From assembly GCA_026415395.1 (NCBI GenBank), contig JAOAHD010000010.1, positions 124,001-188,000 on the forward strand: a stretch of DNA of 64,000 bases, read 5' to 3'. Of this stretch, positions 23,219 to 33,536 are shown piece by piece (within the stretch, counting starts at the first letter, position 1; the number at the start of each line of letters is the position of its first letter). The position numbers were made by a program, and so were the translations under genes. This DNA comes from Candidatus Binatia bacterium. Its GTDB lineage: Bacteria; Desulfobacterota; Binatia; HRBIN30. Below the pieces are notes generated by a model. That model worked only from the letters and a program-made list of their open reading frames with translations, was not told the origin of the DNA and did not search any database.

Positions 23219-24567
23219 GCCGTTTCCCTCGCATGCAAGCCCTGCCCCTTTGCTGGCGGATCGTTGCGCATTTGCAAGGCGGCTTTTTGTCGCACCCCGA
23301 CAGGCACCAAGATGCGCGCAGTCGTACCCCGGCCCTCCTCTGACTCCAGTTCCAATTGTCCGCCCATCTGCTCGACCAACGTGCGGGTGAGGAACAAGCC
23401 AAGGCCGATCCCTTCACCGGGCGGCTTCGTCGTGAAAAACGGCTCCCCTGCCCGCGCGAGTACCTCAGCGGGCATCCCATGACCGTGATCGCGCACCTCG
23501 ATCCGGAGCAAACCGTCGACCGTGTGGATCCGCACCTGGATCGGGCAACCCTCGCGGGATGCTTGCCGCGCATTGCGCAGCAAGTTCGCAATGGCCCGGG
23601 ACAATGCTTGCCGGGCAATGGGGATCCGCTGCGCCGTGTCCGCGCCGTGAACCTCCACTGCGATCTTCGCTCCTTGAGTCGCTCCACCTTCTTCAATCGC
23701 GGCAGCGAACTCGGCAAGGGATACCATCTCCATGTTCTCGCCAAAGCCCTGTCCCGCCTCGCTGGCCATTTGTTGAAGAATGGTCTGGCAACGCCGCACC
23801 TGCTGTCGGATCAAGCGGATGTCCGCAGCAGCCTCCTCGGGTGCATCCCGCAATGCCTTCTCCAGCTCGCGCGCTGCCACCGCAATTGTGGAGAGAGGAG
23901 TTCCCAATTCGTGAGCCGCGCCCGCCGCCATCGTTGCAAGCGCCGCAAACCGCGCCTGGCGTGCGGCAAGATCGCGGGCTGCGGCCAACTCGCGCTCTCG
24001 CTGCGCTAAGGCTTCACGAACACGTTGCACGAAGTAGACGATGAATACTGCGCTGATCCCGAAGGCAACGTACATGCCTTGCAAGTGGAGCCACAAGTGG
24101 TCGTGGTGAGCTGCGGGTGGAGTGAAACCTGGCCAGGGCGGGAGGACAAACAAGAGGCCGAAGCCGATGAGCCCCAGTGCGGTCAATCCCCAAGCGGCAA
24201 GTTGCCGTAAGGTCACGGCCGCAAGCGCAATGTGAACCAAATACAGAAAGCTAAACGGGTTTACCGGCCCACCCGTCATGTGCAAGAGCGCGGTCAGTAA
24301 GACCATATCAACCGCGAGCACGCTGACGAGCCACCACTCGTTGACCGGCCGGCGTCTCGCAAACCAGGTACACAAGAGGTTACTTGCTGCTTCCACTCCA
24401 AAGACGATGCCGAGCGCCACCCAGGGCAGTGCCATCGACAACAGTGCCTCGATTCCGGTGACCACCAGCAATTGCCCCGTAAGGGCCAACCAGCGGAGGC
24501 GAGCCAACCACAAAAGCTGAATATTTTCCGGCCCCAATGCCGGTGTCCCTCCAAACTCAGACCTCAT
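23215..24567 (-). CDS. regB: RegB/PrrB/ActS-type membrane redox sensor kinase
   Basis: A 450-residue histidine kinase with six N-terminal membrane helices. It has the RegB ubiquinone-binding motif GGxxNPF (GGPVNPFSFLYLVHIAL). The H-box is AHELGTPLSTIAV. A cysteine lies 41 residues after the His (RRCQTIL), matching the redox-active Cys of Rhodobacter RegB. The ATP-binding domain shows NLLRNARQAS, VRDHGHGMP and GIGLGLFL. The kinase should respond to the quinone pool or to disulfide formation. It is divergent from an outer-membrane protein gene whose first possible ATG overlaps the regB start codon. Confidence 0.9.
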   Translation of the reverse strand: MRSEFGGTPALGPENIQLLWLARLRWLALTGQLLVVTGIEALLSMALPWVALGIVFGVEAASNLLCTWFARRRPVNEWWLVSVLAVDMVLLTALLHMTGGPVNPFSFLYLVHIALAAVTLRQLAAWGLTALGLIGFGLLFVLPPWPGFTPPAAHHDHLWLHLQGMYVAFGISAVFIVYFVQRVREALAQRERELAAARDLAARQARFAALATMAAGAAHELGTPLSTIAVAARELEKALRDAPEEAAADIRLIRQQVRRCQTILQQMASEAGQGFGENMEMVSLAEFAAAIEEGGATQGAKIAVEVHGADTAQRIPIARQALSRAIANLLRNARQASREGCPIQVRIHTVDGLLRIEVRDHGHGMPAEVLARAGEPFFTTKPPGEGIGLGLFLTRTLVEQMGGQLELESEEGRGTTARILVPVGVRQKAALQMRNDPPAKGQGLHARETA

Positions 24568-24661
24568 GGACCCTGATACACTAACCTTAGCGATTCAAGC
24601 CGGCGAGATTCCCGATCCGTTGGCGACAATTCGCCGCATCGACGCGCGAGCAGCCCTTGCT

Positions 24662-25717
24662 ATGGCAACACTCGCAATGTCACACCACGCGTTGTCTTTC
24701 GGGCGCGCGATCTGCGCTCTATGCCCTCTGCTCCTCGCAACCCTCAACCCGCCTGCTCCGAGCCAAGCTTGTGACATTTGCGCAATTTATACGGCAACCG
24801 AACTGCAAGAAGGTCGGACAGGCCCCCGCATCGGGGTTGCCGAGCAATTCACTCACTTTGGCACCCTGCAACAGGATGGAGAACGCATCCCGAATCCTAA
24901 CGAGGAGTGTCTGGATAGCTCCATCACCCAACTGCTGGTAAGTTTTGGCTGGACATCCCGGTTCCTGTTGCAGCTCAACACACCAGTTATCCATCGTGGC
25001 TTCCAGCGCGGCACTGAGGCGGGGACGGAACGGGGCACCGAAAGCGGTGTCGGCGACATATCCGTGCACGCGATTGCTACAGTGTTCCACACTGTCAATG
25101 AAACCAGCGTGCATCGACTTTCCTGCTCGCTCGGCGTCAAGCTGCCCACGGGAAGTCCCGAGCGGTTAAAGGAGGAGCTCGCCGACACACCCGACCATGT
25201 GGAGCCCGAGGTTCCACCTGTCTTTCGGTCAGTGACACTCCGTCCCCGGCACAGCACCACAGGCGCGCTCAGCGGGATCCACGGCCACGATCTTGCATTG
25301 GGGACAGGGTCCACGGACGTCATCCTCGGCGCACAGTGGCTGGGAACCTATCGACGTTTTTACGGCACGGCGTCGCTCCAATACTTTATCCGCACCGTTG
25401 GGTCATACGGGTACAGGTATTCGAACGAAACCATTCTCTCCGGAGGTCCAGGTCTCTTCCTCCTCACGCGCCACGACACCACCCTTGGTTTCCAATCGTT
25501 GTTGACGCTGGACACGAAAGGCACCGACTCTCTCAACGGAGAGCGGGTGGGCGATACGGGCGCAACGTTCCTCTACGCGGGGCCTGCGCTACACTGGACT
25601 TGGAGGAGTTCCTTGAGTGCGGATTTCGCACTCGACATTCCCGCGGTACGGAACAACACGGCGGTACAAATCGTCCCTGATTTCCGCTTGCGTGGAGGGG
25701 TCGTGTGGCGCTTCTGA
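24662..25717 (+). CDS. Predicted outer-membrane protein with N-terminal CDIC motif
   Basis: I do not recognise a named family. From the ATG at 24662 a signal peptide (ICALCPLLLATLNPPAPSQA) leads to CDICAIYTATELQ. About 300 residues of alternating strands follow, and the protein ends in Phe (LRGGVVWRF), as outer-membrane barrels do. A start at 24566 would add 32 residues ahead of the signal and overlap the regB start, so 24662 or the ATG at 24677 is preferred. The CxxC at the mature N-terminus could bind a metal or haem, or be a lipidation or redox site. It overlaps the next gene (TlpA-like) by 13 bp and is divergent from regBA. Confidence 0.6.
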   Translation: MATLAMSHHALSFGRAICALCPLLLATLNPPAPSQACDICAIYTATELQEGRTGPRIGVAEQFTHFGTLQQDGERIPNPNEECLDSSITQLLVSFGWTSRFLLQLNTPVIHRGFQRGTEAGTERGTESGVGDISVHAIATVFHTVNETSVHRLSCSLGVKLPTGSPERLKEELADTPDHVEPEVPPVFRSVTLRPRHSTTGALSGIHGHDLALGTGSTDVILGAQWLGTYRRFYGTASLQYFIRTVGSYGYRYSNETILSGGPGLFLLTRHDTTLGFQSLLTLDTKGTDSLNGERVGDTGATFLYAGPALHWTWRSSLSADFALDIPAVRNNTAVQIVPDFRLRGGVVWRF

Positions 25718-26262
25718 ACACTAGGGCCAAATTCAGACATGGGCGGGCACTCATCCTGCTTCTTTGCCTCTCGCTTGGCTCCTGCCCGGCACGCGCCACC
25801 GGTATCAGCGCAGGGACGCCCTTTCCCAAGGTCACGTTGCTCGACGCCGCCGGGCAACGCTCCTCACTGGAACTTCCGCGACCTGGCGTGGCCTTGATTC
25901 AAGTTTGGGCGACGTGGTGCGCTCCCTGCCACGAATCGATCCCGACTCTGCTCCGGAGCCTGGGATCGGACCCCGACGTGTCGAAGGTTAAAATAATCCT
26001 ATGGAATATCGACAGCGACACCGCTCGGGCACGCGCGTTTCTTGAGGAACGGGTGGGCGACCTGACAAAAGTAGAGTTGCGATTCGATCCAGGGGGAGAG
26101 CAGTTCCTCCGCCTCGCCGCACCAGGAATGCCTGTCATATTTATAGTGGCTGACGGCGTCGTGCGCGCGGCCTTCTCCGGATATCAGCCAGGCACTGCCG
26201 CTGAAGTCATGCCTGCACTCAAGCAAGCGTTAGAACAAGCTGCCGGGATACCTTCTCGCTAG
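25705..26262 (+). CDS. TlpA/ResA-like periplasmic thioredoxin
   Basis: A 185-residue exported thioredoxin-fold protein. The GTG start at 25705 has GGAGGGG upstream and lies inside the 3' end of the previous gene. A signal peptide (LILLLCLSLGSCPARA) precedes a TlpA-type domain with WCAPC (Cys72, Cys75) and the cis-Pro loop APGMPVIF. Family members reduce apocytochrome or copper-site cysteines in the periplasm. Coupling with the CDIC outer-membrane protein suggests this protein keeps those cysteines reduced. Its TAG stop interleaves with that of the opposing CBS-domain gene (CTAG at 26259-26262). Confidence 0.82.
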   Translation: MALLNTRAKFRHGRALILLLCLSLGSCPARATGISAGTPFPKVTLLDAAGQRSSLELPRPGVALIQVWATWCAPCHESIPTLLRSLGSDPDVSKVKIILWNIDSDTARARAFLEERVGDLTKVELRFDPGGEQFLRLAAPGMPVIFIVADGVVRAAFSGYQPGTAAEVMPALKQALEQAAGIPSR

Positions 26263-28739: not shown

Positions 28740-29150
28740 ATGTCCGACCGTGCAACAGGCCATTTCAAGCTGTTGCGGTTTCCCTCGTACCGAAAGCGGT
28801 TGGGCTTGTTTCTAGCAGCTGTCTTTACCTTGCAAGCACTATCGCTGCTGTTCCACGGGCTGGTGCACACTAAAAGAGGTTGCGGGAAATCGCCGGCAGC
28901 AGACGAAGTGTGGGCAGCAAGCTGCGGCAGCACGAGCAACACTAGCCAGGTTTCGCACGACCCGTTTAGCTGCGCCGCATGCCGTGCCGCACAAGATTCG
29001 GGGCGCTCCAGTTTCGGGCCGATCGTTCTCGTTTCCCTGCCAAATGCGGAGAGGTCTTCCGCGGTCGACGCGACAACCGCACCAGCGGCGCCTGAGCCCC
29101 CCCGGCTTGCAGCGCCCCGAGCTCCTCCGTTGCGAGCTGATCTCGCGTAA
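28740..29150 (+). CDS. Small single-pass membrane protein (DUF2946-like)
   Basis: A 136-residue protein starting at an ATG at 28740. One membrane helix (LGLFLAAVFTLQALSLLFHGLVH) is followed by an exported tail with a HDPFSCAACRAAQDS motif and a Pro/Ala-rich end. The layout of helix, then His and a CxxC in the tail, is that of DUF2946-type proteins, which are often linked to metal uptake. It is the first gene of the apparent operon leading to the outer-membrane and ABC transporter genes. The exact family is uncertain. Confidence 0.55.
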   Translation: MSDRATGHFKLLRFPSYRKRLGLFLAAVFTLQALSLLFHGLVHTKRGCGKSPAADEVWAASCGSTSNTSQVSHDPFSCAACRAAQDSGRSSFGPIVLVSLPNAERSSAVDATTAPAAPEPPRLAAPRAPPLRADLA

Positions 29151-29242
29151 GTTCTGAGAACCGAGGTCAGTGCAGGCCCTCGTCGCTTCTTGGATCAAGA
29201 GGCGATGGGGGGCTGTCTAATCGCTCACAATAGGAGGTCAGT

Positions 29243-30799
29243 ATGCAATGCGGGTCCTTATCCAAACGCCCGCGGTTTGCTCTTGCGAAGGCGTATTTGG
29301 TCACGGCCACCCTAAGCGTAGCTTGGGGGCTCGGCGCACCAGGCATCGCACAGAGCCAAGATCGAGTCCTCGAACGCCTGCAGCGCGAGACCGAGCAGTT
29401 GCGGCAAGGACACGAAGAGCAGGCGAAACGGCTCAAGGCACTCGAGCAGGAACTGCGTGGTTTGCAAGAAAATCAGAGGGCTACGACGAAGGACGCAGCC
29501 GCGCAGGCATTAGACCGAGCTCTCAGCGAAACAGCACCATCGTCTCCCTTGCCAGGCGCGGGGGCCACCTCGGTTTGGTCGACGACGATCGGTGGAACAC
29601 CGTTGCGGCTGCTCGACCTGTCGCTCGACGCCATGGTAGCCGCAGGGGCATCCACCGCGACCGATGCAGAACTCGAAGGTGGGCTGCAAGCTGGGGGGCA
29701 TGACCCGATCCGCAGGGGTTTTACACTGCAACAGGCAGAGCTGTCGCTGATCGGCGCCGTCGACCCATATTTCGTTGGCGAAGCCCACGTGCTGTTCTCG
29801 AGCCACGGTGCAGAACTCGAAGAAGCATTTCTCACCACCACGAGCCTCCCTTGGGGTCTCCAGGTCGAGGCTGGTCACATGTTGACCGAATATGGTCTCC
29901 TGAATCCGCTCCACCCCCATGCGTGGGACTGGATCGATCAACCCGTCATTTTGTCACGCCTGCTCGGTCCCGAAGGTTTACGCTCGCCCGGGGTTCGAGT
30001 CGGCTGGTTAAGTCCTCTGCCCTGGTTTTCCGAGGTGCATCTCGGGGCACAAAATGCCAACGAAGGTGAAACTACGGCCAGTTTCCTCACATCGGAGCCC
30101 GTCGGGGGAAGGCCTGCCACGCGGCTGAGCACTCGTTCGTTGGCAGACCTACTTTACCTTGTGCGCTGGCAAAACTTCTGGAACGTCACCCCGTCGGGCG
30201 GGTTGCTGTTGGGTGCCAACATCCTCCATGGGCCAAACTCCACGGGAAGTGATGGCACCACCTGGATCTACGGGGCCGACTTCAAATACCGCTGGCGTGC
30301 GGAAAACAATTTTCGCGGGTGGCCTTTCTTCTTGCTTCAGGGGGAAGTTCACAAACGAGACTTCACTGCAGCCTACTACTTGCCAGCGAGCGAAGCTGGG
30401 GCACACACCGTAGCCCTTCACGGCTTTGTTCCTCGCCACAGCGATGGGAGCGCGGACATCCCGACCCCGCTCCCCGAAGTCCCGTTACCCGGAGCAATCC
30501 TTCGCGACGTAGGTTTTTACGCCCAAGGCCTTTACGGATTTCGTTATGGATGGGCCGCGGGGCTCCGCTTAGAGTTTGCCAGCGGCAAAGGGCAAAGCCT
30601 TGCCGGACGCGCCTTGGACCCTTTGAGGAGTGACCGCTGGCGTCTTTCGCCGTTACTTGTGTGGCTCCCCACGGAGTACTCGCGCCTGCGGCTCCAGTAC
30701 AACTACGACCGAGCCCAGTTTCTGCCGGACCGTGACGCCCATACCGTCTGGCTCAGTGCCGAAATTCTCTACGGCCGCCATCCTACGCATAAGTACTGA
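29243..30799 (+). CDS. Outer-membrane protein with N-terminal coiled coil, in metal-uptake operon
   Basis: A 518-residue protein with a strong TAGGAGG site. A signal peptide ends near IAQSQ. A coiled coil follows (RLQRETEQLRQGHEEQAKRL...LQENQ, residues ~42-80), as in trimeric or peptidoglycan-tethered porins. The remaining ~400 residues are beta-barrel-like, with many aromatic-ended strands and a C-terminal ILYGRHPTHKY. No TonB box or plug domain is seen. It stands 12 bp before the metal-binding protein gene, which implies a role in letting the metal or a metal complex across the outer membrane. The family is not a named one that I can identify. Confidence 0.65.
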   Translation: MQCGSLSKRPRFALAKAYLVTATLSVAWGLGAPGIAQSQDRVLERLQRETEQLRQGHEEQAKRLKALEQELRGLQENQRATTKDAAAQALDRALSETAPSSPLPGAGATSVWSTTIGGTPLRLLDLSLDAMVAAGASTATDAELEGGLQAGGHDPIRRGFTLQQAELSLIGAVDPYFVGEAHVLFSSHGAELEEAFLTTTSLPWGLQVEAGHMLTEYGLLNPLHPHAWDWIDQPVILSRLLGPEGLRSPGVRVGWLSPLPWFSEVHLGAQNANEGETTASFLTSEPVGGRPATRLSTRSLADLLYLVRWQNFWNVTPSGGLLLGANILHGPNSTGSDGTTWIYGADFKYRWRAENNFRGWPFFLLQGEVHKRDFTAAYYLPASEAGAHTVALHGFVPRHSDGSADIPTPLPEVPLPGAILRDVGFYAQGLYGFRYGWAAGLRLEFASGKGQSLAGRALDPLRSDRWRLSPLLVWLPTEYSRLRLQYNYDRAQFLPDRDAHTVWLSAEILYGRHPTHKY

Positions 30800-30811
30800 A
30801 AGGAGTTCGCC

Positions 30812-31936
30812 ATGGTCGTGTTCAACGATTTGCCAACCACAGAGGTTGCCAGTCCACCATCGCCAAACCGTGGGTTCTCCGTGGGTGTGCCTGGGCAACT
30901 CCTCGCCCTGGGGTTACTGCTGTGTGCTGCGGCCGCACAATCTTTGGCGCAAGAGAGCCTCAAGGTCGTGACCTCGCTTTCCGACTTTGCAAGCATCGCC
31001 CGCCACGTGGGAGGACCATCCGTGGAAGTTTCCTCGCTTACAAAAGGCGGTGAGGATCCGCACTTTGTCGAGGCGAAGCCAAGTTTCGTCAAACTCTTAG
31101 CCGCTGCCGACATCCTGGTCGTTGCAGGCATGGATTTGGAAGTGGGCTATCTACCGTTGCTGCTGAACAACGCGCGCAACGCTCGTGTCCTCCCTGGTCA
31201 AGCCGGCTACGTCGACTGCTCCGTCAACATCGAAAAACTTGAGGTGCCAGCTGGTCCAGTAGATCGCTCCATGGGAGATGTTCATCCCTACGGGAATCCC
31301 CATTACTGGCTGGACCCCATCAACGGCGTCCACATCGCCTGGCGGCTTGCTGCAGTGTTCGCGCAGTTACGGCCGGAGCAGCGCTCGCTGTTCGAGCAAA
31401 ATGCCGCTCAGTTCCAGCAGCAAATTTACACACACTTGGCCGGAGAGGTGCTGGCATCGAAATACGACGTGGGCAAACTCGCACTGCTGCAACATCGCGG
31501 ACAACTTCTTTCCTTTCTCGACACCCAGGGCGACCGTGAGTTTCTGGCCGGTTGGTGGGGCATGCTGCTCCCAAACGCACCGATCCGAGCGGTGGACGAT
31601 CACAATCTTTGGCCCTACTTTGCTCGCCGTTTTGGCATCGCCATCATCGGTCACATGGAGCCGAAGCCGGGGATTCCCCCGACCACCACGCAACTTCAGC
31701 TGTTGGTAACGCTGATGCACCGGGAACACGTCCGCTTGATCTTTTCAGCACCTTACTACGATCCGCGCCACGCGCGGTTTCTCGCCGAGGCAACCGGAGC
31801 AACGATTGTTCCCCTGGCGCATCTGACTGGTAGCCGTCCCGGAACTGAGGACTACATCGAGATGATCGAGTACAACGTGAGGGCGGTGAAAACTGCCTTT
31901 GAAGCGGCGGCGAAAACTCCCGGAGACTCGCGGTGA
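30812..31936 (+). CDS. znuA: ABC metal (Zn/Mn) substrate-binding protein, ZnuA-type
   Basis: A 374-residue periplasmic cluster A-I (cluster 9) binding protein. It starts after AAGGAG. A signal-like segment (LLALGLLLCAAAAQSLA) follows 30 polar residues. Candidate ligands are the His of GGEDPHFVEAKPS, the His of GDVHPYGNPHYWLDP, the His of VDDHNLWPYF and a C-terminal Asp in APYYDPRH. No long His-rich loop, as in classical ZnuA, is present, so zinc versus manganese is not certain. GTGA overlap couples it to the ATPase. Confidence 0.82.
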   Translation: MVVFNDLPTTEVASPPSPNRGFSVGVPGQLLALGLLLCAAAAQSLAQESLKVVTSLSDFASIARHVGGPSVEVSSLTKGGEDPHFVEAKPSFVKLLAAADILVVAGMDLEVGYLPLLLNNARNARVLPGQAGYVDCSVNIEKLEVPAGPVDRSMGDVHPYGNPHYWLDPINGVHIAWRLAAVFAQLRPEQRSLFEQNAAQFQQQIYTHLAGEVLASKYDVGKLALLQHRGQLLSFLDTQGDREFLAGWWGMLLPNAPIRAVDDHNLWPYFARRFGIAIIGHMEPKPGIPPTTTQLQLLVTLMHREHVRLIFSAPYYDPRHARFLAEATGATIVPLAHLTGSRPGTEDYIEMIEYNVRAVKTAFEAAAKTPGDSR

Positions 31937-32694
31937 GAGAATCGGCAAACTCGCTCCCTCCTGCACTCCTCAGCTTGGTCGGAGTCACGGTCGGGTACGG
32001 ACGAGAGCCCGTGCTTCGCGAGGTGAGTTTCACAATCCGGCAGGGAGAGTTCTGGTTCTTCCTCGGTGGAAACGGCGCGGGTAAAACTACTTTAGTGCGG
32101 TCCTTGCTGGGACTACTTGCTCCGCTGGCCGGCCGCATACAGACGCAGTCGAATGGCCCGATTTTTAAGACCGTGGGTTTCGTCCCTCAGCGGTGCGACC
32201 TAAATCAAAGCTTGCCCACCACCGTGCGCGAGTTCGTCGTTCTTGGCCTCGTTGGCCTCAACGTTCGGCGTCAAGAGCGTGCGCGTCGGCTCGCTTGGGC
32301 TCTCGAAACCATCGGTCTCCAAGGTCTCGAGCAGAAGAGCTACTGGGCCTTATCCGGTGGACAACGCCAACGTTGCCTGATCGCTCGGGCGCTTGTACGC
32401 AAGCCTCGCTTACTGATTTTGGACGAGCCCACAACCGGACTGGACCCCCGCGCCGAGCACGCCCTGTTTGAGACCTTGCGGCGGTTACACCAGCAGGAAG
32501 AGCGCACGATTGTCGTAGTGACCCATGACCTCGGCCTTGCCCTCCGCTACGCGACTCACGTTGCCCTTCTACACAACGGGCGTGTCGAAGCGGGACCTGT
32601 CGAGGCAGTGCTCACCCGCGAGCGGCTGCAAGACGTTTTTGGGGCCACGGCTGCGGCAGGATATTTCCGGCCGACGTTAGGACGCCACCCGTGA
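31933..32694 (+). CDS. znuC: ABC metal transporter ATP-binding protein, ZnuC-type
   Basis: A 253-residue ABC ATPase. Walker A is GGNGAGKTTL, the Q-loop region is FVPQRCDL, the signature is LSGGQRQRCLIARAL, Walker B is LLILDEPTTGLD, and the switch is VTHD. It starts at a GTG inside the stop of the binding-protein gene and its own stop overlaps the permease GTG (GTGA), so the three genes are strictly coupled. Confidence 0.87.
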   Translation: MRESANSLPPALLSLVGVTVGYGREPVLREVSFTIRQGEFWFFLGGNGAGKTTLVRSLLGLLAPLAGRIQTQSNGPIFKTVGFVPQRCDLNQSLPTTVREFVVLGLVGLNVRRQERARRLAWALETIGLQGLEQKSYWALSGGQRQRCLIARALVRKPRLLILDEPTTGLDPRAEHALFETLRRLHQQEERTIVVVTHDLGLALRYATHVALLHNGRVEAGPVEAVLTRERLQDVFGATAAAGYFRPTLGRHP

Positions 32695-33536
32695 TCCAAT
32701 CGTTTATCGATTCTTGGCCTCTGTTCCAGAATACGTACATCACCGGCTGGTGCCTTGCTGGGCTCCTCGCCTTGGTTGGCGTGGCGATCGTGGCTCGAGA
32801 TCAAATATTCCTAGGTCTGGCGGTTTCCCAGGCATCTCTTCTCGGAGTTGCCTTCGGCATGTGGCTCCTCGCAACCTGGCCGCATCTGCTCACCGTTGTC
32901 GCGGACGGGGAGTGGTGGCTCTCCCTGAGTGGCATGGCGTTCGCGATGCTCGCAGCCTTGGCCACAAGCCGCGCTCGCCGCCCAGGAAGGGACAGCCCTG
33001 AGGCCATCACCGGCTGGATTTACGCGTTCGCTGGCGGTCTTGCTGTGCTGGTTCTCTCCCGCAGCCCCCACGGTCTGGAGGAGATCCATCGACTGCTGTC
33101 GAGCACCATCATCGGAGCAACGCCGTCCGATGTGCTCGTCTTTGCGGCTCTGCTGGCCGCCACCGCGCTTGCAGCGGTGCGGTGGTACGAACCCATCACG
33201 CTGCTGGTCATGGATGCTGAAATGGCCGGCGCCGTCGGCATTTCCGTCCGCCGCTGGAACATTTGTCTTGCCCTGTGGGGGGCAATCATCATTGGACTGG
33301 CCATGCGTGTTTCGGGCCTGCTCTTCACGTTCGGCTGTCTCATCCTTCCGCCCCTCGTTGCCAAGAACAGTGTGCGCGAAGTTCGGTCGATGTTTTGGGT
33401 CGCACCACTCGTCGCCGTAGTCACGACCTTCTGCGCCTTCATTATCGCTAACCGTTACGATTTTCCTCCAGGACAAGTGGCGGTGGCGCTTCAAGGAGGG
33501 CTGCTTACCCTGAAGTGGGTCTTTCGCCGCGGCTAG
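32691..33536 (+). CDS. znuB: ABC metal transporter permease, ZnuB-type
   Basis: A 281-residue polytopic inner-membrane protein with about eight helices. It matches the ABC-3 family: an early GLLALVGVAIVARDQIFLGLAVSQASLLGVAFGMWL segment (split here over several helices), a cytoplasmic EEIHRLLSSTIIGATPSDV loop and a C-terminal TFGCLILPPLVAKN. It is the last gene of the run and ends before a 197-bp gap with convergent groEL. Confidence 0.85.
   Translation: MIQSFIDSWPLFQNTYITGWCLAGLLALVGVAIVARDQIFLGLAVSQASLLGVAFGMWLLATWPHLLTVVADGEWWLSLSGMAFAMLAALATSRARRPGRDSPEAITGWIYAFAGGLAVLVLSRSPHGLEEIHRLLSSTIIGATPSDVLVFAALLAATALAAVRWYEPITLLVMDAEMAGAVGISVRRWNICLALWGAIIIGLAMRVSGLLFTFGCLILPPLVAKNSVREVRSMFWVAPLVAVVTTFCAFIIANRYDFPPGQVAVALQGGLLTLKWVFRRG

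Follow-up and report, generated by a model that had tools for sequence, protein, structure and literature searches.

A putative metal-sensing leader upstream of a porin and a ZnuABC-type importer in a Candidatus Binatia bacterium

Gene organisation of the operon

The 64,000-nucleotide stretch of Candidatus Binatia DNA analysed here (the window; positions 124,001 to 188,000 of contig JAOAHD010000010.1, assembly GCA_026415395.1) contains five co-directional open reading frames (ORFs) on the plus strand between positions 28740 and 33536. They encode, in this order, a small Cys/His protein, an outer-membrane protein (OMP), a ZnuA-type binding protein, an ATPase of the ATP-binding cassette (ABC) type and a permease. 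This gene set and its order, described in an earlier note made from the sequence alone, are borne out by the ORFs and by Pfam. The first gene (28740..29150, 136 amino acids) codes for a protein with an N-terminal hydrophobic segment, His and Cys residues, a CxxC motif and a C-terminal RAPP, and is treated below as a putative arrest leader of the CruR/CutF type. It is followed by the genes for the OMP (29243..30799, 518 amino acids), the ZnuA-type (cluster A-I) metal-binding protein (30812..31936), the ZnuC-type ABC ATPase (31933..32694) and the ZnuB-type ABC-3 permease (32691..33536), the last two with GTG starts.

The four genes behind the leader are tightly packed. Between the OMP and ZnuA genes there are 12 bp containing AGGAG, and both junctions of the ABC genes are GTGA overlaps. 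These overlaps had been reported in the earlier note, too, together with several 12-bp gaps, of which just one exists. The gap between leader and OMP gene measures 92 bp, and it matters because it is regulatory in appearance.

The ZnuA-type protein matches PF01297 with an E-value of 2.7e-43 (148.8 bits, cut-off 29), the ATPase ABC_tran PF00005 with 4.6e-29 (102.2 bits, cut-off 25) and the permease ABC-3 PF00950 with 3e-26 (92.9 bits, cut-off 20.1). By these matches the importer is of the cluster A-I metal ABC type (ZnuABC/MntABC). The NCBIfam equivalog cut-offs were missed both for AztABC (AztC 94.8 of 350, AztA 164.8 of 220 and AztB 60.2 of 280 bits) and for Znu (ZnuA 47.5 of 268, ZnuC 135 of 306 and ZnuB 37 of 284 bits). 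The OMP and the small protein stayed below the cut-offs of all Pfam and NCBIfam families. At E<=0.1 no TonB-receptor family of Pfam is matched by any of the five genes, in agreement with the previous statement that no TonB-dependent receptor is present.

Linkage of the OMP to ZnuABC and predicted folds

In a set of 39 genomes, the own genome included, the OMP was detected in 28 and ZnuA in 30. By their coordinates, all 28 OMP-positive genomes carry a ZnuA match directly downstream of the OMP on the same contig and strand, the OMP match being weak and partial in two of them (G004, G036). All nine genomes without ZnuA are also without the OMP, and in 14 of the 28 the OMP-linked set was the sole ZnuA-family system found. 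A wider set comprised the best-scoring 80 of 299 relatives from a scan of named genomes (loci with L numbers below). Their titles cover about ten phyla, including Binatia, Methylomirabilota, several delta-proteobacterial groups, Planctomycetota and Verrucomicrobia, and further Spirochaetaceae, Nitrospirae, Neomarinimicrobiota and Proteobacteria; the phyla were assigned by record title, and some titles (Klebsiella, Akkermansia) seem to be wrong labels of metagenome bins. ZnuA stands next to the OMP in 77 of these 80 loci, and ZnuA, ZnuC and ZnuB follow downstream on the same strand in 64, some contigs stopping too early to tell. Co-occurrence of the OMP with ZnuABC in other genomes was the main check proposed in the earlier note, with missing linkage named as the result that would count against it. 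The linkage is present and far stronger than a reader of the sequence alone could know. Genes resembling the four TonB receptors of the host were found in the fetched flanks of 2 of the 80 loci, more than 4 kb away.

Some loci deviate from this arrangement. L046 and L072 have different ORFs after the OMP and a contig end soon after. In L102 (7938-9724) a FUR-family gene lies 23 nt downstream of the OMP and ZnuA is not there, so that the OMP is paired with a regulator alone. L056 and L089 contain tandem ZnuABC sets, two each, and in L056 a separate CxxC-48-RAPP leader lies directly ahead of the first set.

In a ZnuA tree, 93 OMP-linked and 17 unlinked rows were split by one branch with a support of 100, a separation reached in 0 of 500 label shuffles; this was a quick version of the tree, in which the long-branch unlinked rows are unsure. 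Left out of it were L001-L020, L021, L022, L025, L036 and stretches below 220 amino acids (below 200 for L121-L146). L021, L022 and L025 repeat L042, L041 and L055, respectively, L036 is no repeat, and the identical pair L033/L082 was kept. By this tree the OMP-linked ZnuA proteins are a separate group.

The host genome (3.69 Mb, 25 contigs) holds a single copy of the OMP. Its four TonB-receptor and four TonB_C matches are all located outside the operon. A second ZnuABC of ordinary type, without an OMP, is encoded at another site (L127, own genome C2:110000-128000), where it adjoins a BmpA-type ABC cluster, the names of the neighbouring families being judged by eye.

For the OMP, an AlphaFold2 model based on 58 sequences (57 of the 80 loci and the window, the others being dropped as truncated, of odd length, as near-copies or for size) reached a mean model confidence (pLDDT) of 86.1. 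It contains a signal helix, a long helix at residues 35-80 and 16 main strands between residues 119 and 510, as expected from the coiled coil and barrel that the earlier note had read from the sequence. The coiled coil is probably periplasmic and trimer-forming. In a DALI-like comparison the model was closest to OprP (Z 29.0) and OprO (28.9), followed by OprB (24.5) and DcaP (24.4); against OprP, 314 residues were aligned with a root mean square deviation of 2.9 and 13% identity in the aligned part. The top Foldseek matches were 16-strand-type porins and other barrels, nothing else. At sequence level a Protein Data Bank search with the OMP family profile gave mostly coiled-coil matches, none below an E-value of 0.028 (a keratin), and no barrel relative stood out. 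Porin_O_P is not matched by the window OMP (E<=0.1) and is absent from the 20 Pfam families matched by the 58 members at E<=0.01, none of which is matched by more than three members, and those weakly. The TonB Plug and PF00593 are likewise not matched by the window OMP at E<=0.1. An identity with FapF was rejected, the NCBIfam match of 5.7e-5 spanning residues 22-92 alone and lying far below the cut-off. The TonB-independence proposed for the OMP is thus supported by a predicted 16-strand porin fold with no plug. From the model, the protein probably works like a substrate-specific porin outside Porin_O_P and the TonB receptors.

Invariant His, Asp and Glu residues occur in loop L1, in loop L3 and near the C-terminus. 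In loop L3, the predicted constriction (residues 215-246, 29885..29980), H224, W228, D232 and R239 are invariant and H226 is conserved at 90% or more; the loop was assigned from the strand order of the model and from conservation, with strands counted from the N-terminus. The invariant His and Asp in this loop suggest a metal-selective pore.

In an alignment of 50 ZnuA sequences (49 of the 80 loci and the window, the others being dropped for the same reasons), H84, H158, H164 and H264 are invariant. The ZnuA model (pLDDT 91.3) gave fold Z-scores of 25.8-29.9 to the listed members of its class. Extra helices between residues 212 and 239, near the position where the Pfam match is split, mark the OMP-linked group. 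Mn binding proteins carry a Glu at the third metal position, whereas the zinc type has His at all three. H264 is aligned with the Glu of the Mn protein 5hx7, and zinc is therefore favoured over Mn; the His at the three metal positions (H84, H164, H264) suggests zinc.

The small first protein and the RNA behind it

Leaders were analysed in 77 of the 80 loci, the other three having less than 450 nt upstream of the OMP. With a strict rule (CxxC, a hydrophobic segment and an R[AGSN]PP end, at most 600 nt upstream) an ORF upstream of the OMP was picked up in 38 of the 77 loci from several phyla, compared to 9 ORFs elsewhere (5550 ORFs scanned in all). The end motif alone was found in 49 loci, that is in 50 of 194 upstream ORFs compared to 73 of 5356 elsewhere (Fisher p 2e-42). 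The 11 loci added in this way comprise six from Methylomirabilota with CxxH, four in which His and Cys are clustered (L114, L116, L118, L119) and L069, where the end reads RPPP. In the Methylomirabilota leaders (L043, L044, L045, L046, L048, L049) CxxH replaces CxxC and the final R[AS]PP is kept, which makes a change of the sensed metal possible. Leaders are often His-rich.

The window leader carries its CxxC (CAAC, residues 78-81, codons 28971..28982), a motif shared with CruR of Bordetella pertussis and a putative metal sensor, 49 residues ahead of RAPP (residues 127-130, codons 29118..29129), the putative ribosome arrest motif. The same spacing of 49 residues is present in both same-genus relatives (L041, L042), and in all 38 strict loci the distance from the first Cys to the Arg is 45-52. 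CxxC followed after 45 to 52 residues by R[AGS]PP near the end occurs in no other ORF of the window. A profile built from 36 upstream leaders, with the window genus left out, ranked the window leader first of 524 window ORFs (E 9.1e-7; next 0.0094) and found the ORF just upstream of the OMP in 10 of 10 relatives' loci given to it from among L021-L042, with a worst E-value of 6.4e-4. The hydrophobic segment at about residues 21-40, located by eye, is consistent with export. Over the aligned part, identity to the same-genus leaders is 31 and 35%, compared to 70% for the OMP.

Further ORFs of the CxxC-RAPP type or matching the leader profile were detected on the opposite strand in L073 (-939..-589 and -2169..-1849 relative to the OMP start) and in L027 (6734-7030), where the opposite-strand ORF outscores the ORF upstream of the OMP. 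It looks as if these ORFs headed divergent leader-controlled operons.

The small protein had been called DUF2946-like in the earlier note. The DUF2946 profile did not match the window protein itself, and motif geometry and the leader profile were used instead; a PHROGs search with the leader gave nothing useful. DUF2946 was matched at E<=0.1 by 8 of the 15 leaders scanned, the window's being one of the 15, and L057 alone exceeded the Pfam cut-off. Because of these numbers our claim is limited to a CruR-like mode of action of the leader and does not extend to membership in DUF2946.

In CruR of B. pertussis, C90 and R139 are likewise 49 residues apart; the response to copper runs through CxxC, expression of the downstream genes requires RAPP, and the spacing matters (PMC9426467). 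Arrest by CruR has been demonstrated in vitro, and RAPP/RGPP, which arrests translation, is among the most avoided tetrapeptides of proteomes (PMC12992588). By analogy, the small protein is most likely an arrest leader of the CruR/CutF type, a regulator and not a part of the transport route. The structural role in a metal route that it had been given before is better replaced by that of a CruR-like regulatory leader.

The RNA around the leader end is predicted to be structured. The region 29091-29260 folds with -79.1 kcal/mol (z -4.03), a value not reached by any of 200 shuffles. The 92-nt gap itself has a z of -4.05 owing to a predicted stable hairpin at 29172..29216 on the plus strand, with an uninterrupted 16-bp inner stem at 29177-29211 and no T run after it. 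Of 50 gaps, 17 showed a z below -2, compared to 1 of 50 coding controls. In the CruR operon, copper leads to Rho-dependent termination in the gap (PMC9426467). In all 38 loci compared, the excess of C over G is larger at the 3' end of the leader than in the OMP gene, which would fit a Rho site.

A Zur box upstream of 28740, which the earlier note had proposed to look for, was not found: in the 305 nt upstream of the leader there are 0 palindromes with 7 of 8 arm matches (shuffle mean 1.0), the search covering simple palindromes only. The host has two FUR-family genes, neither of them a clear Zur. One is Fur-like, and the other is probably PerR-like, because a rubrerythrin-like gene lies nearby. 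FUR-family genes were found within about 5 kb of the OMP in at least 9 of the 77 loci, a lower bound because the flanks differ in length. One locus has both a FUR-family gene and a leader, 8 have FUR only, 48 a leader only and 20 neither (Fisher p 0.001, uncorrected for relatedness).

Elsewhere in the window, at 24566-26262 (+), a TlpA-like thioredoxin follows a protein of 383 aa that contains a CDICAIY motif and matches no Pfam family at E<=0.1. This is possibly a further envelope metal or redox unit.

Possible function, alternative explanations and significance

Taken as a whole, we regard it as fairly probable that a TonB-independent porin and a ZnuABC importer, most likely for zinc, are under the control of a leader that senses metal and arrests translation. 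When the metal is scarce, the ribosome would stall at RAPP of the exported leader, and this stall would allow transcription and/or translation to continue across the structured gap of 92 nt. Metal bound to the nascent CxxC would relieve the stall and shut off the downstream genes, as it can be inferred from CruR. The 16-strand porin with its coiled coil would pass the metal over the outer membrane without TonB, like OprP does for phosphate, and ZnuA, ZnuC and ZnuB would, by homology, import the ion from the periplasm. Of the route proposed in the earlier note for zinc or a similar metal, the metal route is upheld by the ZnuA-type protein with its invariant His; zinc itself is likely.

Several results weigh against this interpretation. 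By the motif test 28 of the 77 loci are without a leader, and DUF2946 is matched neither by the window leader (E<=0.1) nor anywhere in its own genome (E<=1). The studied relatives of the leader sense copper. The gap hairpin itself leaves the ribosome site of the OMP gene unpaired, and the C>G skew in the window is weak (0.043 over the whole leader, 0.18 in the best 80-nt stretch). Two relatives (G030, G037) possess ZnuA without the OMP, and three of the 80 OMP loci (L046, L072, L102) lack ZnuA. The order of Foldseek E-values puts MOMP, chitoporin and DcaP ahead of OprP; PF00593, the TonB-receptor barrel, is weakly matched by 1 of the 58 OMP members (8.6e-5) and BBP2, also weakly, by 3. Runs of at least five His were found in loop L4 of 4 and in loop L6 of 1 of the 58 members. 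The ZnuA fold scores for Zn and Mn binding proteins are tied, and the FUR, CobW, ZIP and MerC neighbours described below belong mostly to one lineage without a leader.

The architecture might be the same and the metal copper (or nickel/cobalt), with an ordinary copper-sensing CruR and an ABC importer carrying copper. This appears rather unlikely to us. Members of Methylomirabilota and Binatota may need copper for methane-type oxygenases, which speaks for copper. CruR and CutF, too, sense copper, and the genes behind Cys-type CutF-like leaders are mostly copper genes (PMC9426467, PMC9973294). However, the downstream genes are of the ZnuA/ZnuB type with invariant His in ZnuA, and the Methylomirabilota leaders have CxxH instead of CxxC. 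Moreover, six loci of one Binatia-type lineage (L063, L065, L066, L070, L071, L082) carry CobW/COG0523, MerC and ZIP genes beside the OMP: a MerC-domain protein lies between ZnuA and ZnuC, a ZIP gene downstream and, in five of the six, a FUR-family gene upstream, the families being those of protein clusters of which one representative each was scanned. By these neighbours the six loci are an extended zinc-type island without a leader. In a table of a Zur study (PMC4176598), the Caulobacter DUF2946 gene CC2720 stands beside zntA and the czr resistance-nodulation-division (RND) genes, and the authors of the CutF paper infer that some leaders of this kind lack copper specificity (PMC9973294). Zinc is favoured because of the ZnuA/ZnuB type, the invariant His and the zinc-type neighbours at the six loci, and we consider it reasonably likely that zinc rather than copper is the metal.

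A second alternative, which we likewise hold to be unlikely, is that the OMP, as a porin with no selectivity or with a different one, merely travels in the operon, the metal entering by general diffusion and ZnuABC alone being metal-specific. The predicted fold is indeed that of the general 16-strand porin class, and His-rich loops are rare; present in few members, they were rejected as a general zinc mark of the family. The near-constant pairing with one ZnuA group across about ten phyla and the invariant His, Asp and Glu residues argue against it, and so does OprP, the closest fold, which is substrate-specific according to its structure title. OprO is substrate-specific, too.

Quite improbable is a membrane-anchored metal chaperone that passes metal from the OMP to ZnuA and bears its RAPP end incidentally. 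The small protein looks exported, is Cys/His-rich and adjoins the OMP. Yet CxxC, RAPP and their spacing are kept while the remainder diverges much more than the OMP does within the genus, the RAPP/RGPP sequence is avoided in proteomes and arrests translation (PMC12992588), and a structured gap and a C>G bias follow the leader. An ordinary Zur-regulated operon with leader features as relics is hardly probable either, since the FUR-family genes that might favour it occur in 8 of 9 cases at loci without a leader, neither of the host's FUR-family genes is clearly Zur, and no palindrome lies upstream of the leader.

Among known systems, the window resembles the CruR-bfrG-bp2921 operon of B. pertussis in its small exported first gene with CxxC and a C-terminal RAPP 49 apart, in the long gap followed by a gene for an outer-membrane metal transporter, and in the C>G-rich leader region. 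In contrast to the TonB-dependent receptor, PepSY protein and copper of that operon, it has a porin and ZnuABC and a leader without a DUF2946 match. With CutF-CutO of Rhodobacter capsulatus it shares an exported leader that bears a metal motif and ends in a proline-rich stretch, and an RNA stem-loop ahead of the following gene. The gaps of the CutF type are mostly below 100 nt (PMC9973294), comparable to the 92 nt observed here. There, however, copper raises the expression of a multicopper oxidase, and the window hairpin leaves the ribosome site uncovered.

The OMP is most similar to OprP and OprO, TonB-independent substrate-specific porins with a 16-strand barrel and its best structural matches. 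OprP has a role in phosphate uptake; the window OMP differs from it by the low identity, the lacking Porin_O_P match and the conserved His/Asp instead of the OprP arginine ladder. The importer belongs to the same binding-protein, ATPase and permease families as the zinc importers ZnuABC and AztABC, but is set apart by the separate ZnuA group, the extra helices, the porin of its own ahead and scores below the equivalog cut-offs. In its proposed role, zinc transfer over the outer membrane together with ZnuABC, the OMP is like ZnuD-type TonB-dependent zinc receptors; unlike these, it has no plug, 16 strands and no sequence match, TonB receptors having 22 strands. MspD of Mycobacterium smegmatis, a mycobacterial porin of the MspA type, is from a protein family different from that of the window OMP. 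Among the literature found it is nevertheless the nearest published system to this OMP, being linked to zinc homeostasis with ZnuABC and without TonB, and it was called accessory (PMC13098993). According to the Caulobacter study, zinc enters via non-specific porins or TonB receptors (PMC4176598).

Each part of the operon is of a known kind, and the porin family as well as the combination of arrest leader, porin and ZnuABC appear undescribed in the literature searched. We found no description of a zinc-linked porin of this kind or of an arrest leader with zinc uptake, in a search that left source tables, figures and most subscription papers aside. In the main text of the CutF paper (PMC9973294) the words zinc, ZnuA and porin are absent, as is znu in that of the RAPP survey (PMC12992588), the gene classes of its Fig. 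4 lying outside this check. The earlier observation holds in the main, though it overstated the 12-bp gaps and its DUF2946 label has only indirect support; its interpretation is partly supported, the first gene being most likely a switch and not a carrier.

A more far-reaching version, which seems conceivable to us though somewhat doubtful, is that in about ten phyla a zinc-sensing nascent-chain switch of the CruR type, retuned from copper and existing in CxxC, CxxH and HHC variants, replaces Zur and controls a zinc-selective porin of a new family together with ZnuABC. The leader would carry metal sensing by nascent peptides beyond copper to an importer of the zinc type and would account for control without a clear Zur. 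The passage of zinc over the outer membrane is only partly known, and with its close tie to a single group of ZnuA proteins this OMP family offers a direct candidate for a third route, one that can be tested. If true, the operon would hold a complete, self-regulated zinc route across two membranes.

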